From Clostridia bacterium (GTDB lineage Bacteria > Bacillota > DTU025): DNA of 64,000 nucleotides. A model generated the notes under the pieces. That model did not search any database. It was not told the DNA's origin and worked only from the letters and a program-made list of their open reading frames with translations. The stretch's first letter is position 1, and every line of letters starts with the position of its first letter. The position numbers and the translations under genes are program-made. The stretch spans positions 1 to 64,000 of the forward strand of contig JAYFQW010000026.1 in the NCBI GenBank assembly GCA_034926675.1. The letters are read 5' to 3'. Below, piece after piece: positions 41,332 to 56,295 of the stretch.

Positions 41332-41360
41332 TTGGCAAACAGGGTTGACTCTGATATGAT
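41332..41360 (+). promoter_or_regulatory. Promoter of the T-box/lyase unit
   Basis: TTGGCA (41332-41337), 17-base spacer, TATGAT (41355-41360) with extended TGA upstream. The predicted start at about 41367 lies 15 bases before the first pairing segment of the leader. Confidence 0.75.
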
Positions 41361-41381: not shown

Positions 41382-41698
41382 ATAAAGGCGATGACTGAAA
41401 AGAAGTACGAAATGACGTATCCCAACAGAGAGTTCCCGGTCGGTGCGAGGGGCAGGGATGTCATTTCCGAATACATTTCGGTAGCTGCTCACCGAAAGGC
41501 GCGTTAGCGCCCGGTAGATTGAGACGGGTTCACCCGTTACAGCGATAGAGTATAAGCGCAGCGCTGCATTGCAGGCTTTTCGCTGTAAGTGTTGCACCGT
41601 ACTTGAAAAGGCTGGCATCGTGAGTTGCCGGTGAATTGAGGTGGTACCACGAGATTTGGCGCTCGTCCTCTTGCAGGGGCAGGGGATGAGCGCTTTTT
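41382..41698 (+). promoter_or_regulatory. T-box riboswitch, tyrosine specifier
   Basis: The leader senses uncharged tRNA and prevents termination. Visible: basal stem CTGAAA (41395-41400) with TTTCGG (41476-41481); loop-E AGTA (41404-41407) facing GAA (41469-41471); upper stem AAATGAC/GTCATTT (41410-41416, 41460-41466) and ATCCC/GGGAT; AGAGAG (41427-41432) and the GGTCGGTGCGAG apical motif; T-box AGGTGGTACCACGAG (41639-41653). The codon directly after GAA is TAC (41472-41474) followed by the usual A, i.e. tyrosine. The variable T-box base is T, complementary to an A discriminator, as in tRNA-Tyr. The terminator is at 41659-41698. Family assignment is firm; the Tyr reading is strong inference. 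Confidence 0.93.
41659..41698 (+). terminator. T-box regulated terminator
   Basis: GCGCTCGTCC (41659-41668) pairs with GGATGAGCGC (41684-41693) with one wobble, followed by five T. The upstream ACGAG of the T-box is complementary to the CTCGT of the 5' arm, so antiterminator and terminator exclude each other. Confidence 0.92.
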
Positions 41699-41764
41699 GC
41701 TTTCCCAGCGATATGGGCGTACCGGCGCCAAACGGCACGCACCGATGTAAGGAGCGTGTTTTGC

Positions 41765-43213
41765 ATGGCAAACGTACGGTTCTTCACAGGCGAGCATGTA
41801 CCCCTTGAGATGCACAAGGTGCGCATCGTGCAAAAACTCAGCCTTCCCTGCATCGAGCGCAGGCTCGAAGCGATTACCGAGGCGGGCAACAACACATTTC
41901 TGCTTCAGAACTGCGATATCTTCCTGGACATGCTGACCGACAGCGGCGTCAATGCAATGAGCGATCAGCAGATGGCGGCGATGATGGTGGCCGACGACAG
42001 TTATGCAGGCTCGGCGACTTTCACAAGACTCGAGAACAAGCTGATTGAGCTGTTTGGTATGCCGCACTTTCTGCCCGCCCATCAAGGGCGCGCCTGTGAG
42101 CATATTCTTGCGTCAGCGCTAGTCAAGCCGGGAAATGTCGTGCCGATGAACATCCATTTCACCACGACCAAGGCGCACATCACCAGAAAGGGCGGCAGCG
42201 TTGTCGAGCTGGTTATCGACGAGGGCTTGAAGACGACCAGCGAATTCCCGTTCAAGGGCAACTTTGACCTCAATAAGTTGGGGCAGGTCATCGACGCGCA
42301 GGGAGCAGACAACGTCCCATTCGTGCGGCTGGAGGCGGGCGCCAATCTGATTGGCGGGCAGCCTTTCTCGCTGCAGAATGCGTGCGAGGTTGCGGCGCTG
42401 TGTCGCGCCCATGGTGTCCTGACCGTGCTGGACGCCAGTCTTCTGCAGGATAACCTGTATTTCATCAAGCAACGCGAGGCGGCGTGCAAAGGCATGAGCA
42501 TCCGAGAGATCACCCGCGCACTGGCCGACGAGATGGATATCATCTACTTCTCCGCCCGCAAGCTGGGCTTTGCCAAGGGCGGCGGAATCTGTGTGCGCGA
42601 TGATGCCTTGTTCGCAAAGATGCGCGAGCTGGTGCCCCTTTTCGAGGGCTTCTTGACATACGGCGGTATGTCGGTGCGCGAGATGGAGGCGATCGTTGTT
42701 GGACTGGACGAGACGATGGACGAGGACGTCATCTCCCAGGGGCCGCAGTTCATCCAGTTCATGACGGACGAGCTTGTCAAGGCGGGCGTGCCGGTTGTCA
42801 CCCCTGCGGGTGGGCTGGGCTGCCACTTGAACGCAATGGAATTCTTGCCTCACGTGCCGCAGCATCAATACCCCGCCGGCGCGCTGGCGGCGGCTCTTTA
42901 CATCGCAAGCGGGGTGCGCGGCATGGAGCGCGGCACAATGAGCGAAGCACGTGAGCCCGATGGCAGCGAGGTGTTCTCAAAGATGGAACTGCTGCGCCTG
43001 GCTTTGCCCCGACGGGTGTTCACCCTCTCGCAGGTCAAGTACGCCATCGACCGCATCGTCTGGCTATATGGTCGCCGCGACCTTGTCGGCGGGCTGACAT
43101 TCACCGAAGAACCCGCAGTCCTGCGCTTCTTCTTCGGGAAGCTGAAGCCCACATCAGGCTGGCAGGCTGAGCTGGCGAGGGCCTTTCGCGCGGACTTCGG
43201 GGACAGTCTGTAA
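41765..43213 (+). CDS. Tyrosine phenol-lyase/tryptophanase family PLP enzyme
   Basis: A 482-residue beta-eliminating lyase homologue. Shared with tyrosine phenol-lyase: GYNTF-like GNNTFLLQ, MLTDSGVNAMSD, SYAGSATF, HQGRA (residues 106-110), FTTT, PLP-lysine segment SARKL (K266), SGVRGMERG with the carboxylate-binding Arg, and LRFFF at the end. Changes are seen at usually fixed positions: DATR reads DASL (Arg to Leu at 226), the K after the catalytic lysine is not followed by D. True lyases split Tyr or Trp to pyruvate and ammonia; the altered residues leave the substrate open. ATG 41765 is 10 bases after AAGGAG. Controlled by the Tyr T-box. Confidence 0.85.
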   Translation: MANVRFFTGEHVPLEMHKVRIVQKLSLPCIERRLEAITEAGNNTFLLQNCDIFLDMLTDSGVNAMSDQQMAAMMVADDSYAGSATFTRLENKLIELFGMPHFLPAHQGRACEHILASALVKPGNVVPMNIHFTTTKAHITRKGGSVVELVIDEGLKTTSEFPFKGNFDLNKLGQVIDAQGADNVPFVRLEAGANLIGGQPFSLQNACEVAALCRAHGVLTVLDASLLQDNLYFIKQREAACKGMSIREITRALADEMDIIYFSARKLGFAKGGGICVRDDALFAKMRELVPLFEGFLTYGGMSVREMEAIVVGLDETMDEDVISQGPQFIQFMTDELVKAGVPVVTPAGGLGCHLNAMEFLPHVPQHQYPAGALAAALYIASGVRGMERGTMSEAREPDGSEVFSKMELLRLALPRRVFTLSQVKYAIDRIVWLYGRRDLVGGLTFTEEPAVLRFFFGKLKPTSGWQAELARAFRADFGDSL

Positions 43214-43333
43214 TGCGTGATATCCACACGGCATTCGAGTCGTGTGCAGCATGTGAAGCAGCGGGACGCCCCGCTTGGCTCGCAGGGTGGAGGACATTGG
43301 ATCAGGCACGTGGAATGGATGTGTCCGGAAGCC

Positions 43334-43934
43334 ATGAGTGTGCGCAACTATCTCTTCTACTGCAAGGTGAAGGCTGTAGCCATTGGAAGCATTGCAGGCA
43401 GTATCGGATATCTGTTCTATGCTGTTGCGCCCTCGTGGGGTTGGCTGCTCGTGGGCCATACTGTAGCATCACCGGCTAGGTGCTTTGTGGCCCCTAGTTT
43501 CCAGGCGTTCATCGCGGAGCAGTCCGCAGAGGAAACACGGGCCCGCGTGTTCGCGATCAGTGAGTCGGCATTCGCTGTGGTTGGCATTGTGGGTCCGCCC
43601 ATAGGCGGATTCCTGTCGCAGCGGTACGGGTTCCGCTGGATGTTTGTCGCGGCGTTGCTGTCGCCCGACTACAACTCACTAGTATCAAAGGAGGTTCCCA
43701 TAAGCATTAGGGGGACTGCCTTCGGATTAGTGTCGACCACCATGGGCATAAGCATCGCTTCCGGCGCCGTATATCGGCGGGTTGATGTGGGCCAGGTTCG
43801 GGCCCAAGGCTCCGTTCGCGTTGCCGCTATTGGCCAGCCTGGGCATGGCTGTAATGTTCTGGTTTAAGCTGCCGGGCAAAACGGACAAGGAGGAACAGAC
43901 CGCAGAGGCGCAGGCATCACCGTCGCGAGCATAG
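43334..43934 (+). pseudogene. Decayed MFS transporter
   Basis: Membrane-protein fragments that belong to one MFS permease: GSIGYLFYAVAPSWGWLLVG and SESAFAVVGIVGPPIGGFLS in one frame, then an abrupt junction after RWMFVAALL to a late segment (VPISIRGTAFGLVSTTMGIS), and after about 43770 the C-terminus continues in another frame (MWARFGPKAPFALPLLASLG to a stop at 43934). N-terminus, central helices and reading frame are lost, so it cannot make a working transporter. It follows the lyase gene, so it may once have carried its substrate or product. Confidence 0.8.
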
Positions 43935-45090: not shown

Positions 45091-45211
45091 AGGGTGAGTA
45101 AGAACCCTGGGTAGAAAGGCCCAACTCCGCAACAGCCATCGGCGGCCGCGGTGCAGAGCAGAACACCCGCCTACGATAACCCCTGGAAGGCGTGGGCCGC
45201 GGCGCTCATCA

Positions 45212-45240
45212 TTGCGCGCGCGTCTGCCATTATTTATGAT
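45212..45240 (+). promoter_or_regulatory. Promoter of the secreted-paralogue pair
   Basis: TTGCGC (45212-45217), 17-base spacer, TATGAT (45235-45240), about 80 bases before the first gene. Confidence 0.65.
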
Positions 45241-45318
45241 CTCTGCAGGAGTCATGACCCACAGAAGCCAATACTACGCGGCAACAGGATATGCAGGTAC
45301 ATGGGGAGTGTGATCCGC

Positions 45319-46485
45319 ATGAAACGACGTCTGATGCTACTCCGTATGGTTGCTGTAATGCTCCTTGCCGTGATGGCAGGCCTGGGCCCTGCACCGGCGG
45401 TTCGGGCTGCAATTCCGCGGGCTGACCTTCCAGCTGACGTCGCTGCGTGGCTGGCGCTCATGCCAGAACTGGCCGCGGCGCCTGCTCCTCCCTGGCTGAA
45501 GGCAGGCGCACGGCTCACGTACCACATTATGTCGGCTGCAAGAGAGGGCGATACGACGCCCGCAGGCGAGAGCCTGGTGCAGTATGACGTGGTTTCGTCA
45601 GACGGAACGAGCGTGCTCGCCGTAGCCGGAATTCACGTCATCTCCGACGGCATGCTGGCGCCTGTGCGTGACACGGGGTTCATCGTAGGCGCCCCAGGCG
45701 TGGGCGAAGTGTGGATGAACCCGGCGGCGTTGTCTGCTGCGGAAAGGCACGCCAATCAGCATATCTCCATCGCACACGTGCCCATGAACGTGGGCGGGGC
45801 CACAATAAAGGCAGTGAGGTTCGAATCCGCCGAAGGTGTTTCACGGAACGTGAGCGTGTTCGAAGAGGCAACGGGTGTATTGCTGTACCGAATCCAGGCC
45901 CTGGGCAACCTTGACACAGCCAAACAGAACACCGTGATATCGGAGTTCGTGTCGATGAGGCAGATTAACCCGGCATGGGCCGGCGGCTCAACGCCTGCAT
46001 GGGCGGCAGTAGACGCCATGTTCAAGTATGAAGGCACAACTGCGGTCAACGTGGGCCAAGGGTCGCCCGCCATCCCACTTCCCTTGGCAATGCTGGGGCA
46101 AATAGTGTATGCTGCACCGACGTATGCATGTGTAAGGTGGGAAACCTACATGAGCGGCCGCAAGACCGAAGAACGCTACTCTCTGTCGCCGGCGGCTATC
46201 CCGTCAGGAGGCATATTCCTGCCGCCGCAGGCCTTGGCGGTGTTGAGGGCAGGACAGGCGCTTGATGCTGATCCCACAACAGGCGTGACCATATCCGTAG
46301 CGCAAAGCCCCCTGGTCATGGACGGTAAGCAACTGCTTACACTGGTGCATCAGGGCCGATCATTTCAGCGGTTGTACGGCTACGATTGTCAGTCGGGCAT
46401 GCTGATCTACTTCGGCGAGTCGGCACAGCAAGGACTTGCCATGGTCCAAACAGAACTGAAGTTGACCGGCGTGTACGGTAGATGA
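45319..46485 (+). CDS. Secreted protein of unknown function, paralogue 1
   Basis: A 388-residue protein with a signal peptide (MKRRLMLLRMVAVMLLAVMA, Ala-rich cleavage region near residue 32). The mature part is rich in beta-type segments such as LTYHIMS and VLLYRI and shares most of its length with the next gene: WLKAGARLTYH, GVGEVWMNPAAL, ALDADPTTGVTISVAQSPL and YGYDCQSGML are landmarks. I know no family for it. ATG 45319 follows GGGGAG; an upstream ATG at 45301 is possible. It has its own promoter after repeat copy C. Confidence 0.8.
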   Translation: MKRRLMLLRMVAVMLLAVMAGLGPAPAVRAAIPRADLPADVAAWLALMPELAAAPAPPWLKAGARLTYHIMSAAREGDTTPAGESLVQYDVVSSDGTSVLAVAGIHVISDGMLAPVRDTGFIVGAPGVGEVWMNPAALSAAERHANQHISIAHVPMNVGGATIKAVRFESAEGVSRNVSVFEEATGVLLYRIQALGNLDTAKQNTVISEFVSMRQINPAWAGGSTPAWAAVDAMFKYEGTTAVNVGQGSPAIPLPLAMLGQIVYAAPTYACVRWETYMSGRKTEERYSLSPAAIPSGGIFLPPQALAVLRAGQALDADPTTGVTISVAQSPLVMDGKQLLTLVHQGRSFQRLYGYDCQSGMLIYFGESAQQGLAMVQTELKLTGVYGR

Positions 46486-46500
46486 TAATGGGAGGAAGGC

Positions 46501-47679
46501 ATGATGAAAAGCCGTCTTGGTCTATTTCGTCCCAACCTATTCTGTGTGACCCTCGCGCTATGTGTAGGGGCTGCGGGATTGGGGTTGCTGGGCCCGGGGG
46601 CGGCGGCACGGGGGGCAGTTCAGCCCGCAGATATCCCAAGCGATGTTCCAGCTTGGCTGACGCGCATTCCCGAACTGGCCTCAGCGCCCGCGCCTGCCTG
46701 GTTGCGAACGGGCGCGCGGCTCACGTACCACGTCATGTCGACTGCCAAGAAAGAGGATAAGACATCAGGAGGCGAAGCACTGGTTCAGTATGACGTGGCA
46801 TCATCTGACGGGAAAACCGTTCTCGTCATTCTGGGTATTCACAGCATATCTGGAGGTCCTCTCATGCCGCTGCGCGACGGCGGCTTTATCGTGGGCATTC
46901 CGGGTGTAGGCGAGGTGTGGATGAACCCGGCGGTGCTGCCCACTGCAGAAAAACACGGCAATCGAGATTTGGCCATAGGGCACACGTCCATGAACGTGGG
47001 CGGTGCTGCGAGGCAGGCAGTGAGGTTTGAGGCCGACGAGGGCATCGGGCGGAATGTGAGCGTATTCGACGAGCAATCCGGAGTGCTGCTCTACCGAATC
47101 AACACCCTCGACAAGGCCACGCAAAACACGGTGACATCCCAGTTCATGTCGATGAGGCAGATGAACCTGGCGTGGGTTGGCGGCTCGACGCCTGCATGGG
47201 CAGGAGCAGGCACTCAACTAAGGTATGAAGGCACAAGTGAGGTCGGTTTCGGGTATGGGCCGCCTGTAGCGACGCCCACCGTGATGCTGGCGCACATAAC
47301 GCAAGCAGGCCCAACGTGGGCTATGGTAAAGTGGCAAAGCTACCTGAACGGACAGCTCAACGGAGAACGGTATTCCCTGGCGTCGGCGACTATCGCCTCA
47401 GGCGGCGTATTCCTGCCTCAGGCGGCATTGGCGACGCTGAAGGCAGGCCAGGTGCTTGATGCGGATCCCACGACGGGCGTGACAGTGTCGGTTGCGCAGA
47501 CCCCCTTGAGCATGGACGGCAGGCAACTGCTCACACTGATGTATCAGGGCCAGTCGTTTCAGCGGCTGTGCGGTTACGATTGTCAGTCGGGAATGCTAGT
47601 CTACTACTCGTCTTTCTCACAGGAGGGAGTGAGCCAATTCCATACGGAACTCAGGTTGACTGGGGTTTCCGGCAAGTGA
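46501..47679 (+). CDS. Secreted protein of unknown function, paralogue 2
   Basis: The 392-residue tandem paralogue of the preceding gene, 15 bases downstream behind GGGAGGAAGG. Signal peptide residues 1-37. Landmarks WLRTGARLTYHVMS, GVGEVWMNPAVL, QVLDADPTTGVTVSVAQTPL and CGYDCQSGMLVYY align to paralogue 1 without gaps over long stretches, so this is a recent-to-moderate duplication with conserved architecture. The two are likely cotranscribed and act outside the membrane. No enzymatic motif is seen. Confidence 0.8.
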   Translation: MMKSRLGLFRPNLFCVTLALCVGAAGLGLLGPGAAARGAVQPADIPSDVPAWLTRIPELASAPAPAWLRTGARLTYHVMSTAKKEDKTSGGEALVQYDVASSDGKTVLVILGIHSISGGPLMPLRDGGFIVGIPGVGEVWMNPAVLPTAEKHGNRDLAIGHTSMNVGGAARQAVRFEADEGIGRNVSVFDEQSGVLLYRINTLDKATQNTVTSQFMSMRQMNLAWVGGSTPAWAGAGTQLRYEGTSEVGFGYGPPVATPTVMLAHITQAGPTWAMVKWQSYLNGQLNGERYSLASATIASGGVFLPQAALATLKAGQVLDADPTTGVTVSVAQTPLSMDGRQLLTLMYQGQSFQRLCGYDCQSGMLVYYSSFSQEGVSQFHTELRLTGVSGK

Positions 47680-47719: not shown

Positions 47720-49228
47720 TTAAGGGACGGCCGCCGACCTGAGCGCCTCCCGGACGTCTTCAGCGAGGGCGTCGAGCAATCTCTCCTGATAGCCCGCCTT
47801 CCGCTCTGCTGCCATCGCGTCTTTGGCGGGGACGAGTTCAGGCGCGGTGACCCCCTGAAGCTTCGCGAGGCGGTTTTCGGGAAGAGGCGTCTCTGACACA
47901 CAGCCTAGGTAGTCTTGGAGTCCGTAGCGCCACGGCCGGACTGATCCAGGGAACCGGTTCATCAGCCTCTGGGCCATCTGGAGCCCTTCGGGGTCAAAGT
48001 CTCCTGAGTAGAAGATGGCAGCTCCGCCGGCCGCAAGCTTGTCCATGAGCATCAAGGCAGCCAGCCTGAATTGCCCATGGGTGCACACCATAGGCGGTCG
48101 GCGGGCGTCTCGCGAAGGATCGTCCGATAATCGATCCAGGATAGCTGAGAAGACCCCTGAGTTCTCAACCACAAACACCGCCGGGCCGGCGCCGTGGCCC
48201 GCCCCAGGCCCTGCGCAAGCCTCAAGCGGCATGCACGACCGCGCCTTGACAAGCTCCCGGAGGGGGATGTTGAGCACAGCGCCTTCCCGGCAGGCAGCGG
48301 CCCACGTTGCCAGAGGCTGGGGAACGCCGGGGCCGTCCGATCCGCCTGATCCGCTGCTTGGTAGGGCAATGGGGATCTCGTCGAACGCCAGGATCCCGAT
48401 GCAGGTCACGAAGTTTAGGAGATCGTCCCGTATTATCCCGAAGTGCGCCAGGAGTTCAGCGACGTCCTCGGCCCCATGAGGCGGCGCCGTTGCGCCATCT
48501 GCCGGGCCATCCACCGGGTTGTTCCTAAGGTTGTCCGCCTGGCCGCCAGCACAGTCGCGGCCTGCCACGGCCGCGCGCACCCAACTGAGCGCGGCGATGA
48601 GGTGCTTGCCTTGTTCAGTGTCTATGTCGAAACCATGTGGGTCTCCGGCGAGGCGGCTCGCGAACACTGGGAGCCGTTCATATTGCCCAGTGTCCCGGCG
48701 AGCGGGGTCGGTCGGCAGATTCGCGAGGGCCCGGAGGACCTTCTCGAGCTGTGTGCGCAATGTCGCGGGATCGCGGTCGTAGGAGCGATGGATGCCCCGG
48801 CTTCCTGGGCCTTTCGCCGCGACATTCTCAATCCATGCCCTGCTGTAGCGCGCCCCGCACACCTCATGTAGGCTCTGGAAGAACGCGCTTTTCGCCGCCT
48901 GATACTCCTGCCGCTCTTCCGAGCGGGTAGCGATAGGGTTCCCCTGGTATCCTTCGAGGATCTTGACCAGCTCAACTCCTGCAAACCTGGTGCGCTCAAG
49001 CGCCTTCGCTAAGTGAGCGATGGAGACAACTGCCGATTCGCGCGAGGTGTAGTCTTTGCGGAAGAGCTCGGATAGGGCCTTCCTCTCTGCCGCGTCGAGC
49101 CCGACGAGCCTTACCGTGCCGCGGATGTCGCCGAGGCGCCTGTACTTCTGGATCACCTGGCCGATTAGGCGATGCAGCCCCTTTTCCTTTTTGAAAAACT
49201 CTACCGCCTCCGCTAGCCTCTTGTCCAT
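47720..49228 (-). CDS. jetD: Wadjet JetD-like protein (DUF2399/DUF3323 type, TIGR02679-like)
   Basis: A 502-residue protein with the C-terminal DUF2399 domain: VFVVENSGVFSAILD, CTHGQFRLAAL and YSGDFDPEGLQ, a toprim-like acidic fold proposed to be the nuclease that cuts circular plasmid DNA in Wadjet-type systems. The N-terminal helical part matches the companion domain. It is the last gene of the four-gene operon, 22 bases after jetC, with ATG 49228 behind GGAGGGAG. Function follows from the known JetABCD family. Confidence 0.88.
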   Translation of the reverse strand: MDKRLAEAVEFFKKEKGLHRLIGQVIQKYRRLGDIRGTVRLVGLDAAERKALSELFRKDYTSRESAVVSIAHLAKALERTRFAGVELVKILEGYQGNPIATRSEERQEYQAAKSAFFQSLHEVCGARYSRAWIENVAAKGPGSRGIHRSYDRDPATLRTQLEKVLRALANLPTDPARRDTGQYERLPVFASRLAGDPHGFDIDTEQGKHLIAALSWVRAAVAGRDCAGGQADNLRNNPVDGPADGATAPPHGAEDVAELLAHFGIIRDDLLNFVTCIGILAFDEIPIALPSSGSGGSDGPGVPQPLATWAAACREGAVLNIPLRELVKARSCMPLEACAGPGAGHGAGPAVFVVENSGVFSAILDRLSDDPSRDARRPPMVCTHGQFRLAALMLMDKLAAGGAAIFYSGDFDPEGLQMAQRLMNRFPGSVRPWRYGLQDYLGCVSETPLPENRLAKLQGVTAPELVPAKDAMAAERKAGYQERLLDALAEDVREALRSAAVP

Positions 49229-49250
49229 CCTGCTCCCTCCGAACACCAAT

Positions 49251-52200
49251 TCACTTTCCCGCCGCGGTCACAGCCACCATGTCTCTTGCTGCCCTGGCGT
49301 CCCGAAGCGCATCCTCGGCCGCCTCCTCAAGCACTTCTGATTCCCGGACCGATCCGAGCAACTGGCGCGCGTGACCATCCCAGCGGTAGTGCACGCAAGT
49401 CACGAAGGATGCATTTCTTGGGCGGACAAGCTCGCAAATGGAGAGAGACGAGACGGTATCGTAGTCTCCCCACAGGCTCGCTGAGTTCATGATGTAATCG
49501 AAGCCCAGCTTCTCCAGGAGATCAAACATGTCGCGGATGTTGTTCTCGTCCACTCCGGCAAACGCCTCATCCAGGGAGATGATGTAGGGCGCATCTTCGC
49601 GAGCCTCGGAGTACCTGGAGAACGCGGCAGATAGAAGCGGGATGTACATGGCCATGGCTTTCTCGCCCCCGCTGAACTTGTAGAACGCGTTATTGGTAAG
49701 CTCCCGCTCCCGCTCGCCCTGGCGGGTGTAGTACAGAGTGAAAGAGAACCACTGCCGGTAATCGAGGACTTCCTTGATGACTCCGTGCAGAGTCTCGCCC
49801 TGCCTTCCCTCGGCGAGCAATTCCTTCGCCCGGTCGATCCTGTATCTGAAATGCCTGACCACCATGGTCACATCTTCTTCCTTCAACAGGCTCGGGTTAG
49901 CCCGAAGCAGATCGACGAGGTCTTTCGTGTCCATCTCATCCTCGGACTGGGCGGTCCGGGGCCGCAATCGCAGGTCGAACGTAAGGCCGCTTGAGGTATC
50001 CCTCTCGGCCATGAGCTCTCGCATCCTCTTCACCCACTGCTCGGCCCGGGTTATCCGCTCCCGGATGATCCTGCCGACACTGTGCATGATGATCTCCTCA
50101 TAGAGCTCACGGTCCTTTTCGCTGAGCAATCGCTGCTGAAGCTCGATGTCCTGATCTAGCTGGTTGAGGACGAAGTAGGGGCTTACCCGCTTCCCTCCAT
50201 ACTCCATCAACACCTGGAGCCGCCGAGACTTCTGCTTCAGTTGCTCCCACTCGGCATCCTCAGCGTCGCCGTCTTCAGCGGGGGCAGGCAATTCCACTTC
50301 GAGCACAGGCTCGATCGCAGGACGGTACTCGACCAGGTTCCCGATCTCCTCATAGAAGGCTTTGTTCAGCCGGCCCGTGACCACCTCCCGATCCAGGTTG
50401 GACTTGGCGATCAGGCGCCCGAGTCTCCTGCGGATCACCTTGGCTCTGTCCAGGGCGGGAGCCTCGCCGTCCGCGAAAGCCGCGTCATCGGTCTCGGCCG
50501 CCTGTCCCTCGTGCCCCTGTCTCTGCGACGAGTCGTCGAGCCTGACAAGGTCCAGTCGTTCGTCGTCGAGGAACACCCTTCTCCATGCGTCCGCCGCCAA
50601 CCGAGCGGAGCTGAGATTCCTTGCTTGGTTCGCGATATCGCGCTCGACGGATTCGATTGCCGTGGCCGCGCTCCCGCTCCTGCTTGCAAGCTCTTGGCTT
50701 TGATCGGGAATGGCCCTGAGACGGTCCACTACCTGCTCTACCCGGGCCCGGATTTCGTCTACCCCAAGTTCTGCAAGGCGAGCCCGAACCTGCTCCAGCT
50801 GGAGCGAGATCCGGTCGAGGTCGGCCCCGAAAGAGCTGATCTCCCTCACAAGCTCGGCTGAGTCTGCTGTGACGCTCTTGAACCTCTCCTTGTATTCACT
50901 GTAGAGGGAGAGGTTGTGGACGAGCCCCTTATGCCCGAGCTCGACTTCGTGCAGGTGAAGCATGTAGTCCTTCATGGACTCAATGGCCCAATCGTACGCG
51001 TCTTCAGTCCGCTCGAGCCTCAACCCTTCCGCAGCCGCGCGCAGCCGCCCGCGGACCTCCTCGAGGCTGGAGTAGGTCTGTTTCACCTTTCCGTTGCATC
51101 GTTCCACCTCGCGTTCGTGCGCCTGAACCTGCAGTTTCGCACCGCCAAGGCGCTCGAACGCTGCAAGCGTATCTGCATCCGCCGGGAAAGCCGCGTGGTC
51201 GGCCGCGAGCTGACGCTGCCGCGCTTGAAGGATCTGAAGCCCCGACTCGAGCTTCAGGCGCTCCTCCCGAATCGATGCGAGCTCAGCCTCCAGGCGGACG
51301 ATTGTTTGCTCACGGAACCTCCGCCGCGCTTCCCTGCCGATGAAAGTCGCCCGCCCGGTTTTGGGAGCGGAACCCGCGATTATGCCGATGCGGTAAGCTC
51401 CGCCTTCGGCCAAGGCTGCGGGAGCTGATTCAAGGGCGGCATCGGACGCTGAGTTGGTTACAAGAATGCTTGCCAGGGCGTCTGCGATGTCCCTTTCCGA
51501 GATGCCGGAGCCCGGGATCGCTGCTGGGCGAAGGAAGTCCGCGAGCGTGGAGGCGAGGATCTGTGGTTTCGGCCTGATGATCCTGTCGGAATCCAATCCT
51601 GTGATGTCGAAGCTCTGGGGAACGATGATCGCGTCGAGCAGGCCCATCTCGGTGATGGCCGACTCTACCCGATCTCGCATATCATCGGGCAGTTCATCGC
51701 GAAACTCCACTGCGGCGAAGAATGGCAAGTGCGGTATCCCGGATTCGGCAAGTCTACGCCTTGCAGCGACGGTTTCCGGGCGGCGCAGGGGCTCAGGCTC
51801 CTTTCGCGCACGCCATTCGGAGAGTTCGCCTTCCTTCGCGTCGATCTCCTGTTTCTTGACGCCCATGGCGTGTTGGACCTCCAGGATTTCGGCCTGAAGC
51901 GCGCGCAGCCGACGGGAATAGGCCTCCTCTTCCGGCGCGCGTGCTTTCGCGTATCTGTACAGCTCATATAGCTGAGAGAGCCGCCTTGAGATCTCCTGGA
52001 TTTCCTCATTGGCGAGCTCAAGCTCTCCGCATCCCTTTCGCCAATCGTGGACTGCCTCTATGAGCGCATCCTTTGCCTCTTCGAAGCCTCTTCCAAGCTT
52101 GTGCTCCTCATTTCGCGCGAGGTCAAGTTCCTTTTGGGCCTCGCCGAGCGTGAATTGTGCTTCCTGGTGCTTCTCTTGTTTTCGGGCGTGTTCTTGAATC

Positions 52201-53567
52201 ACGTTCTTCACGGCCTCAAGCTTGCGCAGATGGTCCCCGGCTTCCTTTCTCCACAGGACGAAGTCGCGCGGGGGCCGGGGATCCTGTTCGAATTCAGAGA
52301 TGGACACGGCGGATGGCACATAGTGCGCGTCCGCGGCGTCTGTCCTCATGGTCTCAAGAGCCTTCTTGATGCTGCCCTCTGCCTCCGCCGCTTCAGCCTC
52401 GCAATGACGTGTCTTTTCCTCGAGATCCGATTCCGTCCGCCGTTTGCTCGACAGCTGACTCTCCTTGTGAGACCTGGCCCGCCAAACGTCGGCGTGCTGC
52501 GCCTCCAGGCCTTGCTTCTCCTGTTCGGCCTTGAAGACGTCGTGTTCCTTGAGTCGGGCCTCTTCCTCTTGAAGAACCTCTCTCTCTCGGTTCAGCGCTT
52601 CGAGTTCTCGCTCGCATGCGGCTTTTTCGGCTCGGCGCTCCACGAGTGTGGCCTCGAGCTCCCTGCCCAGGTCTTCGAGGCGGTCCCGGCGATTGACGGA
52701 GCTTCGGAACCCTTCGGCCTTCTCCGCAAGCACGAACTGGTTATACAGGTCATATTGCTTGCATAGCCGCGATAGAGAGGTCTGGTCGCGCGTTATCTGG
52801 TCGAGCTGCTGTTTGATCTGGTCCATGTTCTCGATGGTGTCTGAAAGCGGCCTGAGCTCATCGTCGGAAAGGGCGGGAAGCGACGCGGTCAGGATCTCGT
52901 ATATCACTGTGGGCTTGAAGTCCTTCGACAGCTTGGGCGTGCGAAGCTGGATGAGAAGTTGGATGAGCTCATCATATACTGCAAGGGACTCGAACCCGAA
53001 GATGTACCTGTTGACAAGCTCCATGTAGTCTCTCTGGGTGCGCACCACCCGGCCGCCCGCTCCGAGCTCATCCTCGAGCTGACGCCGGGTCAACGGGATC
53101 TTCTGCTCCTCGCCTTCTTCGGCGCTGAACTCGGTCTTGTAGAGCAGAAGGTCGTGGCCGATGCGCCGATTGTCGTGGATCACGAAACCCCAGAAATCCA
53201 TCTCGGCTCCGCGCCTTGCCCTGAGCCCGATGCCTGTCGTCATGAACTGAGGCTTGTCTGCGCGTTTGTACTCCAGGTAGAGGTATCCGGTGCGCTCCTC
53301 TCGATCCACTACGTCCTTTTCACCCAGAAGGTAGTCCTCCATCCTCCGCGCCCGGGAACCGAACGGGTCCAGCCGGTCTGCGCCCTTCCTCCCATCGAGC
53401 AGCACCGGGATGAGGCTCTGCATCGTTACGGACTTCCCGGAGCCGTTTGCCCCCCGTAGCAGCAGTTTTCCATTGGAGAACGCGAACTCCTCGTCATCGT
53501 AGTACCAGAAGTTCAGGATCCCCGCTCGATGGATCTGCCATCTATCATCGGATCTGCGTCCGTGCAA
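49251..53567 (-). CDS. jetC: Wadjet JetC-like SMC-family ATPase (TIGR02680-like)
   Basis: A 1438-residue SMC-like protein with N-terminal Walker A (residues 39-46, GANGSGKS, in LLLRGANGSGKSVTMQSLIP), long central coiled coils (about 260-1150), and a C-terminal head with the KFSGGEKAMAMYIPLLSA signature and ISLDEAFAGVDENNIRDMFD Walker B/D-loop. It is the DNA-loop-extruding motor of the system. TTG 53567 is preceded by the jetB stop 3 bases upstream. Size, both heads and coils are complete. Confidence 0.92.
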   Translation of the reverse strand: MHGRRSDDRWQIHRAGILNFWYYDDEEFAFSNGKLLLRGANGSGKSVTMQSLIPVLLDGRKGADRLDPFGSRARRMEDYLLGEKDVVDREERTGYLYLEYKRADKPQFMTTGIGLRARRGAEMDFWGFVIHDNRRIGHDLLLYKTEFSAEEGEEQKIPLTRRQLEDELGAGGRVVRTQRDYMELVNRYIFGFESLAVYDELIQLLIQLRTPKLSKDFKPTVIYEILTASLPALSDDELRPLSDTIENMDQIKQQLDQITRDQTSLSRLCKQYDLYNQFVLAEKAEGFRSSVNRRDRLEDLGRELEATLVERRAEKAACERELEALNREREVLQEEEARLKEHDVFKAEQEKQGLEAQHADVWRARSHKESQLSSKRRTESDLEEKTRHCEAEAAEAEGSIKKALETMRTDAADAHYVPSAVSISEFEQDPRPPRDFVLWRKEAGDHLRKLEAVKNVIQEHARKQEKHQEAQFTLGEAQKELDLARNEEHKLGRGFEEAKDALIEAVHDWRKGCGELELANEEIQEISRRLSQLYELYRYAKARAPEEEAYSRRLRALQAEILEVQHAMGVKKQEIDAKEGELSEWRARKEPEPLRRPETVAARRRLAESGIPHLPFFAAVEFRDELPDDMRDRVESAITEMGLLDAIIVPQSFDITGLDSDRIIRPKPQILASTLADFLRPAAIPGSGISERDIADALASILVTNSASDAALESAPAALAEGGAYRIGIIAGSAPKTGRATFIGREARRRFREQTIVRLEAELASIREERLKLESGLQILQARQRQLAADHAAFPADADTLAAFERLGGAKLQVQAHEREVERCNGKVKQTYSSLEEVRGRLRAAAEGLRLERTEDAYDWAIESMKDYMLHLHEVELGHKGLVHNLSLYSEYKERFKSVTADSAELVREISSFGADLDRISLQLEQVRARLAELGVDEIRARVEQVVDRLRAIPDQSQELASRSGSAATAIESVERDIANQARNLSSARLAADAWRRVFLDDERLDLVRLDDSSQRQGHEGQAAETDDAAFADGEAPALDRAKVIRRRLGRLIAKSNLDREVVTGRLNKAFYEEIGNLVEYRPAIEPVLEVELPAPAEDGDAEDAEWEQLKQKSRRLQVLMEYGGKRVSPYFVLNQLDQDIELQQRLLSEKDRELYEEIIMHSVGRIIRERITRAEQWVKRMRELMAERDTSSGLTFDLRLRPRTAQSEDEMDTKDLVDLLRANPSLLKEEDVTMVVRHFRYRIDRAKELLAEGRQGETLHGVIKEVLDYRQWFSFTLYYTRQGERERELTNNAFYKFSGGEKAMAMYIPLLSAAFSRYSEAREDAPYIISLDEAFAGVDENNIRDMFDLLEKLGFDYIMNSASLWGDYDTVSSLSICELVRPRNASFVTCVHYRWDGHARQLLGSVRESEVLEEAAEDALRDARAARDMVAVTAAGK

Positions 53568-53570
53568 TCC

Positions 53571-54776
53571 TCACCACTCCTTCGCGGCCCGATCGGCGGC
53601 TGTGAGCTTTTCTTCGAATTCGGCTGGATACTCCCCAGTCACCCGCCCGAGCGCGGGCATGAGCAGGATCATCCCGGATTCTGGATCCTTGCGCGCGAAC
53701 CTCCACTCGATCAGGAACGCTTCAAGCTCCCGGGCTACTTCCGAGAGTTTCGCCTCCCGATGCTGAACGCCCCAGCCAGGTCCGTATCTAGACTTGCAGA
53801 CCATTACGAGCCGCTCGAAATCTACCGGGGTGAGCCTGATAGTCTCCTCTGGCTGCCTCTGGAGTTCGCCTGCGGAGAGCGCCTCGCGCACAACCGTCGC
53901 CAGCTGCAGAGAAATGTCGGAAATGCCCTTGGTGTCGGGATACGCGGTGTATCTAATCTTTCGCTCTGAAAGGACCAGCATCGCGCAGGTTCGGTATAGC
54001 TCGAGCCTGAAATCGGTGTGAGCCTCGATATCTTCCCGGATGCGGTTCCGGTAGTTGCGGAGATACAGGATGTCCGGGTCCTGGCTCCCGTGTCCGTACA
54101 TCACAGGGCATAGAAAAAGCTCCCGGTAGATCCGGCGCCGCCGAGAAGCGGTGCTCTCCCGGTCGCCTTCCGTCTCGCCCCAGGCTGCCGCGAGGAGTTC
54201 GCGCATGGTCCTGAACTCCGATAGGTCCTTCGGGTAGGGTCGCATGAAGTATCTGGACACGACAGTCACATCGTAGAGGACCTCAGTATCGGCAGAGAAG
54301 CTGAACCGCTCCACGTCTCCCTCGACCGGCTGGATGATGCCTGTTTCCTGGGCGAACGTGAGCACCCTAACCAGGGACTTCCTGTGCTCGTAGTTGACCC
54401 AGTCAAGACCTATCTCAGTAGGGCACGTCGCCCTGAGATCCTCGCATACCTCGCTCAGAAGGAACTGCTCCTCGACCGCTCTCCGGTCCAGATAGGCGAG
54501 AAGGCAGGCGAAAATGGCATAGTCCCTGGGATGCTTGAAGTCCAGGATGCCCATGGAGGCCTCGGGCTCGGCCGGGATCTTCTCGAGCCTGGCGAAGTAT
54601 CGGTGCACGACGAGCCTAAAGCCGAGCTTGTCGAGGGCGTAGGCCGCGAGGGCCGTTTCACGATCTCGGACCATCCGGTACTTCTCAGGCTCTCTGTCTC
54701 TCAAGATCCACCATTGCTCCATGAGGTCTGTCATAGCTTCTTTGGCAATATCATCGAAAGAGTCGTCAGGCGCCAT
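53571..54776 (-). CDS. jetB: Wadjet JetB-like protein (DUF2398, TIGR02678-like)
   Basis: A 401-residue winged-helix/kleisin-partner-type protein that would act with JetA and the SMC as in other JetABC complexes. Recognised segments include RDRETALAAYALDKLGFRLV and WGETEGDRESTASRRRRIYREL. ATG 54776 lies in the end of jetA (11-base overlap) behind GGAGGTAAG, so translation is coupled. Call depends on position and on resemblance to the DUF2398 family; no single catalytic motif is expected. Confidence 0.85.
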   Translation of the reverse strand: MAPDDSFDDIAKEAMTDLMEQWWILRDREPEKYRMVRDRETALAAYALDKLGFRLVVHRYFARLEKIPAEPEASMGILDFKHPRDYAIFACLLAYLDRRAVEEQFLLSEVCEDLRATCPTEIGLDWVNYEHRKSLVRVLTFAQETGIIQPVEGDVERFSFSADTEVLYDVTVVSRYFMRPYPKDLSEFRTMRELLAAAWGETEGDRESTASRRRRIYRELFLCPVMYGHGSQDPDILYLRNYRNRIREDIEAHTDFRLELYRTCAMLVLSERKIRYTAYPDTKGISDISLQLATVVREALSAGELQRQPEETIRLTPVDFERLVMVCKSRYGPGWGVQHREAKLSEVARELEAFLIEWRFARKDPESGMILLMPALGRVTGEYPAEFEEKLTAADRAAKEW

Positions 54777-56295
54777 TCTTACCTCCAGGTCCAGAGGACG
54801 CCACCAGGAATTCGTAATTGGGCATCTCCAAGATCCCATCGTCGGATTCAAGGCATATCCTCGTGTTATCCACCAGCCTCAGCTCTACCCTGCGGCCGGT
54901 CTCTGTCTTCGCACACAGATCCGAGCTGAGCATGCACCTATCGATCCAGGCCAGGAGGACCCTTCGTATATTCGGGTCCACTCGGCCTAACTCTGCCAGA
55001 GCGATCCTGCCGCCAGCGATCATCTCTTCAATCAGACGCCGCTCTGTGGCCCTATCGCGAAGATGCGCTTCAAGCATCTCCTGCTTTTCGCGTTCCTGGC
55101 TCACGATCGCGCTCGGCTTTGTCCGTTCGTGATAATGCCTGGTCCTGGGCTTTATCGCAACAACAGACGGGGGCAGGTCCCATATCTCTGCATACATGTC
55201 CTCCGAGGCCGGGAAGTCCGAGACGAAGCGCCGGGTATTTGGAACCCCGAAGACGCAGGCTGAAAGCTTGTGCGCCTCTTCTATACTGTCGAGCCCTGCA
55301 AACCAGCGAGCCAGATACAGATAATCGTTGTACCGACTGCGGATGCTCTGGCTCCTTTCGCCCAGCCTCTGAGCGAACCTGGTTATCCTGCGGATTGTCT
55401 CATTGGTCTCGTTCTGAAGGTAAGACAGGTCGCTTTCACGGCCCCCGGCGCCCAGAAACCAATCCTTCAGCCCTTGCCACTTCCCGAGCAGAGTGGCCTC
55501 CAGATCGGATTTGGATGGGCGCGCGTCCAGCCTCGGGATGCTGAGCTGATGGTCGGCGACCTGGCTCGCAAGACGCTTGACGACGTCATCCGGCGTGCTG
55601 CGGAGCACTGCATCTATCTTGGCGGAGGTCCGCTGCAAGGAGGACATGAAGTCGCGGAGATACTCAGTGAGCGCATCCTTGTAGACGAGGAACGCCTCGG
55701 TCTTCATGAGCCCCTCTACCTTCTCGCTCTTCAGATGCGCGAGATAGTCGGTGGCGTTCTGGGTCAGCCTTTGGAAATGCCCGAAGGTCTCGTCCCAGAT
55801 CTGGCTGACCTCCTCGCTAGATCGCGTGTTGCTCGGATCCCGCTCGGGCCCAACGAGCATTTCGAGAGATTCCAGCATCCGCTGGACGAGGGTTCTTTCG
55901 AGTGATCCCCCGAAGGATTCACCCATCTGTTCGAGACTGCGCACCATCCTCTCGATCTCGACGGTGTAGGGCGCGCATTGATACCTGAACCTTTTCTTCC
56001 TGAACTGCTCGATGCTGGCGACCCTGCCCGTCTCCTGACGGGGTATCAGGTTCTTCCACTCCACGAGCTGATCGAGGTCTCGCACGAGCAGGTCTTCAGT
56101 ATAGCCCTGGAAATGCGGGCTCTCTCTCAGATTGTCCAGCACCTCATCAGGAAGGAGGTAGTACCTGAGCCGTTCATGTTGGATGTAGAAGTAACGGAGA
56201 ATGGCGCGGTAGCGCCAGGCATTCTCGGTAGTCAGGTAAGTGACCTCAGTGATCGGTTTCAGTAATCTATCGTCCATGAGCATCCGTCCATCCAT
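54766..56295 (-). CDS. jetA: Wadjet JetA-like protein (DUF2397, TIGR02677-like)
   Basis: A 509-residue kleisin-like subunit and first gene of the operon. Typical segments are TTENAWRYRAILRYFY near the N-terminus and long charged helices thereafter. The start is uncertain: ATGs lie at 56295, 56283 and 56277, none with a strong ribosome site. No clear sigma-A promoter was found upstream on the minus strand. Confidence 0.85.
   Translation of the reverse strand: MDGRMLMDDRLLKPITEVTYLTTENAWRYRAILRYFYIQHERLRYYLLPDEVLDNLRESPHFQGYTEDLLVRDLDQLVEWKNLIPRQETGRVASIEQFRKKRFRYQCAPYTVEIERMVRSLEQMGESFGGSLERTLVQRMLESLEMLVGPERDPSNTRSSEEVSQIWDETFGHFQRLTQNATDYLAHLKSEKVEGLMKTEAFLVYKDALTEYLRDFMSSLQRTSAKIDAVLRSTPDDVVKRLASQVADHQLSIPRLDARPSKSDLEATLLGKWQGLKDWFLGAGGRESDLSYLQNETNETIRRITRFAQRLGERSQSIRSRYNDYLYLARWFAGLDSIEEAHKLSACVFGVPNTRRFVSDFPASEDMYAEIWDLPPSVVAIKPRTRHYHERTKPSAIVSQEREKQEMLEAHLRDRATERRLIEEMIAGGRIALAELGRVDPNIRRVLLAWIDRCMLSSDLCAKTETGRRVELRLVDNTRICLESDDGILEMPNYEFLVASSGPGGKNGA

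Follow-up and report, generated by a model that had tools for sequence, protein, structure and literature searches.

A T-box leader with a tyrosine specifier stands before a gene for a PLP enzyme related to tyrosine phenol-lyase (TPL), and as read from the sequences tyrosine starvation most likely turns this gene on, its product then providing tyrosine. Within the TPL/tryptophanase fold, the enzyme is probably a member that serves biosynthesis (salvage), making tyrosine from phenol. Both lie in the window, by which we mean the whole 64,000-nt stretch of DNA analyzed here.

The leader was found by cmscan as a match to RF00230 on the forward strand, with the full model (1-219) aligned at 103.1 bits against a gathering threshold of 93 (E value of 1.2e-21), and it is the sole Rfam match within the window. 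It has a codon in the specifier loop, a UGGN bulge and a terminator, and lies 65 bases before the lyase gene (Table 1). These results bear out the initial annotation, which had claimed a T-box leader with all core elements and a terminator. The specifier codon claimed there, TAC, is placed by the model alignment, and free folding independently gives an internal loop with C-GAA-UAC-A on its 3′ side. Bacterial tRNA-Tyr has A73 as its discriminator, and the variable base of the UGGU bulge matches it, as had also been claimed. The terminator has a folding energy of -30.6 kcal/mol (z of -4.0). A TTGGCA-like box, as in the putative promoter, also occurs 5′ of the T-box in locus L004. By these features and by the homologous leaders described below, the assignment as a T-box, its tyrosine specificity and its conservation appear well established. 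The initial annotation treated 41382-43213 as one feature; the leader does start at 41382, but the coding sequence itself begins only at 41765.

Table 1 Features of the T-box leader and the lyase gene in the window.
Feature	Position	Strand	Details and basis
Likely sigma-A promoter (putative)	41332-41360	+	TTGGCA (41332-41337), 17-base spacer, TATGAT (41355-41360); direct sequence reading
T-box leader RNA (RF00230)	41382-41673	+	Covariance model
Stem I AGAAGTA, 5′ side of specifier loop, loop E-like motif	41401-41407	+	RF00230 consensus alignment; fold
Stem I distal elements	41424-41449	+	AACAGAGAG (41424-41432), GGTGCGAG (41442-41449); RF00230 alignment; AGAGA conserved in homologous leaders
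Specifier codon TAC (Tyr)	41472-41474	+	Context GAA-TAC-A; RF00230 alignment, fold, conservation in 27/28 T-box genomes
T-box bulge UGGU, pairing with tRNA ending ACCA	41642-41645	+	Variable base T at 41645; sequence; U in every homologous leader checked
Intrinsic terminator	41659-41698	+	GCGCTCGTCC / GGATGAGCGC then TTTTT (RNA: GCGCUCGUCC...GGAUGAGCGC-UUUUU); sequence, fold
Likely ribosome-binding site	41750-41756	+	AGGAGCG; sequence
TPL-like PLP enzyme, third TPL/tryptophanase clade, 482 aa, proposed tyrosine-forming	41765-43213	+	ATG 41765, TAA 43211-43213; profiles, residues, model, tree

In 28 Bacillota genomes, which belong to many families, the ortholog has a T-box on its 5′ side, and the specifier is UAC in all of them except one. 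AAUACA, which includes UAC, is invariant among 15 aligned leaders (mean column identity of 54%). The exception, L056 (genome G236), has the cysteine specifier GAA-UGC-A with the T-box still UGGU, and its sister species (L053) has UAC; the L056 leader is possibly a decayed or re-specified switch. A chance occurrence of the T-box was rejected because the specifier and the leader are conserved among orthologs, and tyrosine control, judged by this conservation, is not accidental. No T-box was found in the sequences upstream of six canonical-type homologs, nor upstream of L001, a paralogue in the window's own genome with tryptophanase-type residues. Orthologs in Proteobacteria, spirochaetes and Akkermansia have no recognizable tyrosine control, and tyrA is present there.

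The lyase is a Beta_elim_lyase protein (Pfam) of the NCBIfam subfamily PRK13238, ‘tryptophanase’ (587 bits). It fails the TPL equivalog TIGR02618 (441.7 bits against a cut-off of 720.7) and the tryptophanase equivalogs TIGR02617 (344 against 825.8) and NF053783 (390 against 750), as other members of its clade also fall short of the equivalog cut-offs. Its identity is about 40% to TPL and 35% to tryptophanase. In an AlphaFold2 model with a pLDDT of 88, the top PDB matches are TPL structures (TM of 0.94, 40% identity), with tryptophanases behind them. In a maximum-likelihood tree, the lyase and its orthologs form a clade of 37 rows on a long stem with 100/100 support, and TPL and tryptophanase fall together in another clade, so that the lyase does not cluster with characterized TPL. 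Profiles and tree thus place it in a third clade, neither characterized TPL nor tryptophanase. The kinship with the TPL/tryptophanase family that the initial annotation saw is upheld, but not membership in either characterized enzyme proper, and the puzzle it raised, of a degradative lyase under T-box control, is largely resolved because the gene lies in this separate clade.

When species genomes were scanned, orthologs with identities of 66-89% turned up in Bacillota, Pseudomonadota, Spirochaetota and Verrucomicrobiota. In a sample of 399 genomes from the window's phylum, of which about 44 have orthologs (partly the same genomes as in the species scan), an identity gap separates clade orthologs (at least 51%) from canonical homologs (at most 45%). 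At the loci looked at, the gene stands alone, and the neighbors differ from locus to locus, giving no functional hint and no biosynthetic cluster.

Incidentally, a degraded-looking MFS transporter fragment of 216 aa (43217-43867) directly follows the lyase gene in the window, and the pair is unlike an operon. Further downstream are two tandem paralogous proteins of about 390-440 aa, apparently secreted and with no Pfam match (45151-47679), and on the reverse strand a complete Wadjet-like defence operon, jetA-jetB-jetC-jetD (47720-56295; PADLOC JetA2, JetB2, JetC2, JetD2).

Active-site residues were compared in the numbering of Citrobacter TPL. Y71, R100, N185, D214, K257 and R404 are kept across the whole clade, as are the TPL-type ring contacts T124, M379, R381, F448 and F449. 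T124, R381 and F448, the phenol-binding residues of TPL, are thus all present in the window lyase. In tryptophanase, positions 124 and 448 are Asp and His, where the window lyase has Thr and Phe. A structural study found that tryptophanase needs Asp-133 and His-458 (Proteus numbering) for indole, and its tryptophanase structures show the PLP 3′-oxygen bonded by an Asn as well (PMC11301627). This Asn is kept in the window lyase. Tryptophanase activity was rejected because the indole-binding Asp and His are replaced by T124 and F448.

The PLP side is different. Every clade member checked has D69, L217, R256, Lys or Arg at 262, and Leu or Val at 343, replacing E, R, K, N and H; the window lyase has D69, L217, K262 and L343 in place of the potassium-site residues E69 and N262 and of R217 and H343. 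In TPL, R217 contacts the PLP oxygen, and E69 and N262 are part of the potassium site. The Lys or Arg in place of the potassium ion suggests a cation-independent enzyme. The change from DATR to DASL, which had been noted as favoring altered chemistry, turned out to be fixed in every clade member checked, a subgroup at 53% identity reading DASL or DTSL. Altered chemistry around PLP is possible, and the changes at R217, K256 and H343, like those in the potassium ligands (E69D, N262K/R), speak against the proposed phenol chemistry.

We compared the presence of tyrA among main-clade Bacillota genomes whose upstream DNA could be read, many of them draft MAGs, taking matches below the Pfam cut-off as absent. 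By this count, tyrA is absent from 18 of the 28 T-box genomes and from 2 of the 16 without a T-box (Fisher P of 0.001, not corrected for kinship). About 23% of the 399-genome sample lacks tyrA. Among the first 22 orthologs, a T-box always went with the absence of tyrA, but an absolute rule of this kind was rejected in the larger sample, in which 10 T-box genomes keep tyrA and only the enrichment remains. Because these 10 keep it, the gene is not merely a replacement for TyrA.

The window's genome, G000 (97% complete), is without tyrA, pheA, aroC (chorismate synthase) and trpA, and several other tyrA-less T-box genomes keep chorismate synthase. Genomes without chorismate synthase also need phenylalanine, and no matching phenylalanine route was found there. 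In G000, T-boxes with Trp specifiers precede a TrpB2-type enzyme and a ferredoxin/aldehyde-oxidoreductase protein. Besides these and the one before the TPL-like gene, T-boxes stand 5′ of several aminoacyl-tRNA synthetase genes or operons, of metF and of cysE-cysK, these last groups being named from sequence. Nine trpB loci were examined in genomes of this kind, most of them without trpA, and every one has a UGG (Trp) T-box; this combination of a Trp T-box with stand-alone trpB likely serves indole salvage. The T-boxes before stand-alone trpB are at L080 (G000:C62:32408-32701), L118, L120-L123 and L125-L127. At L077 (G000:C46:19051-19318), the Trp T-box (UGG) lies 5′ of the protein with fused ferredoxin and aldehyde ferredoxin oxidoreductase N-domains.

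Other tyrosine controls were seen on the same gene. Three species of one genus in the window's order (g6; L064, L065 and L066), without tyrA and aroC, have a relative 53% identical with the same residue signature. A small ORF, MNRYY(I/A)YTTACxxAYR, with four Tyr codons and then a terminator lies 200-245 bases before its ATG, a classical attenuator layout and a candidate for ribosome-mediated attenuation by Tyr codons. Tyr-rich leader peptides were sought in all relatives without a T-box, and convincing ones were found in this genus only.

Other Bacillota without the T-box have in common the element GTAGGAYGGTAGRAA. Over the 399 genomes it gave 20 matches in 18 genomes, compared with 13 for the reversed pattern. 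Nine matches are just 5′ of aroF, two of the TPL-like gene, one of chorismate mutase (named from sequence) and one of a TrpX-type binding protein; in 6 of the 9 aroF cases, a tyrA gene on the same strand follows at a distance of about 1-1.7 kb. The element is not represented in Rfam and is a candidate new regulatory element of aromatic biosynthesis. Because the leader peptide and the element shared with aroF are found in them, lineages without the T-box appear to co-regulate the TPL-like gene with tyrosine biosynthesis.

The element often occurs as TGGTAGGA repeats with an 8-base period, and it is either followed by a terminator or placed at the ribosome-binding site (loci L104 in G149, L107 and L116 in G234, L101, L102, L105, L106, L110, L112-L115 and L117; further loci L013, L037, L043, L047 and L054). 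At L097 (G234:C37), a gene for the alpha subunit of phenylphosphate carboxylase, an enzyme of anaerobic phenol use, has a ribosome-binding site that overlaps with the 13-base core of the aroF-type element. Genome G234 also has a TPL-like gene, and the overlap may be by chance.

We propose the following course. When uncharged tRNA-Tyr accumulates, its anticodon would pair with the UAC specifier and its ACCA end with the UGGU bulge, and this pairing would stabilize the antiterminator, allowing the lyase gene to be transcribed. Serine, or pyruvate and ammonium, would then give the enzyme a PLP-bound aminoacrylate, to which it would add phenol to yield tyrosine. It would thus stand in for prephenate dehydrogenase (TyrA), in the way that stand-alone TrpB builds tryptophan from free indole in these genomes. 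We infer the direction of the reaction, its substrates and the source of phenol. Addition of phenol to the aminoacrylate is proposed because the ring contacts are kept, the chemistry of the family is reversible, and TrpB offers a parallel. TPL and tryptophanase chemistry runs both ways (PMC11301627; PMC7508748). The initial annotation had left a choice between the synthetic direction and a different substrate. The synthetic direction is favored because three unrelated tyrosine controls, one of them common with aroF-tyrA, act on the gene and T-box genomes tend to lack tyrA; a different ring substrate is disfavored by the kept TPL ring contacts.

A catabolic role is unlikely. It is highly improbable that the enzyme is an ordinary degradative TPL whose T-box is there by coincidence or for some other end, such as providing pyruvate and ammonia in times of starvation. 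An identity of about 40% to TPL and TPL as the best fold match would fit this, but the lyase forms a separate clade below the TPL and tryptophanase cut-offs, the canonical-type homologs are without T-boxes, and the three tyrosine-starvation controls, with a leader element common to aroF, argue against it.

There is a small chance that the enzyme supplies or recycles tyrosine from another phenolic or donor, for example by exchange on a tyrosine-like amino acid, rather than from free phenol. The fixed changes on the PLP side (R217L, K256R, D258L/S, H343L/V, and the potassium site turned to Lys or Arg) suggest altered chemistry, and the regulation is compatible with any tyrosine-supplying role. 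However, all TPL residues that bind the 4-hydroxyphenyl ring are kept, and the chemistry of the family is addition and elimination at the beta carbon. We consider it improbable that the product is a tyrosine-derived or tyrosine-like compound, such as a phenolic metabolite, and not protein tyrosine, with regulation by tyrosine supply. Orthologs in tyrA-positive Gram-negatives without visible tyrosine control are in its favor, yet the gene stands alone with no biosynthetic cluster at any locus looked at, and T-boxes activate genes when an amino acid is short, pointing to supply rather than consumption.

Synthesis of tyrosine from phenol, the reading we prefer, can be set beside known systems. 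The window lyase shares with TPL (EC 4.1.99.2; Citrobacter freundii, Erwinia herbicola) the fold, the PLP lysine, Y71, R100, N185, D214, R404, the ring-binding residues and a reversible chemistry, but differs in overall identity, the failed TIGR02618, the separate clade, R217L, K256R, H343L, the potassium site and T-box control. With tryptophanase, or tryptophan indole-lyase (EC 4.1.99.1), it shares the superfamily, fold and PRK13238, but not the indole-binding Asp and His, and it fails both TIGR02617 and NF053783 at its lower identity. The leader has the RNA family, UAC specifier, UGGU T-box and terminator of known tyrosine T-box leaders. A 2008 T-box survey places tyrosine T-boxes before tyrS, a tyrosine operon, and genes for phenylalanine hydroxylase and for NhaC transporters, and its main text names no lyase (PMC2494555). 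The controlled gene class is new for tyrosine T-boxes, and a search of the literature open without subscription found no paper tying a T-box to a TPL-like gene. The Trp T-box with stand-alone TrpB follows the same logic, in that an uncharged cognate tRNA leads to the joining of a free aromatic ring with an amino acid unit of three carbons; the fold is different, and TrpB chemistry is established whereas that of the TPL-like enzyme is proposed.

The chances are about even that the third clade as a whole is a widespread, unrecognized natural tyrosine synthase that uses free phenol and no prephenate, is controlled by T-box, leader peptide or repeat element, and replaces TyrA where it is missing. 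If so, it would be a second bacterial route to tyrosine, bypassing prephenate, and would explain how anaerobes without tyrA cover their tyrosine by phenol salvage. The ‘tryptophanase’ annotations of many genomes would then be wrong in both substrate and direction, and a natural tyrosine-forming enzyme would be of practical interest for producing tyrosine and its analogues.
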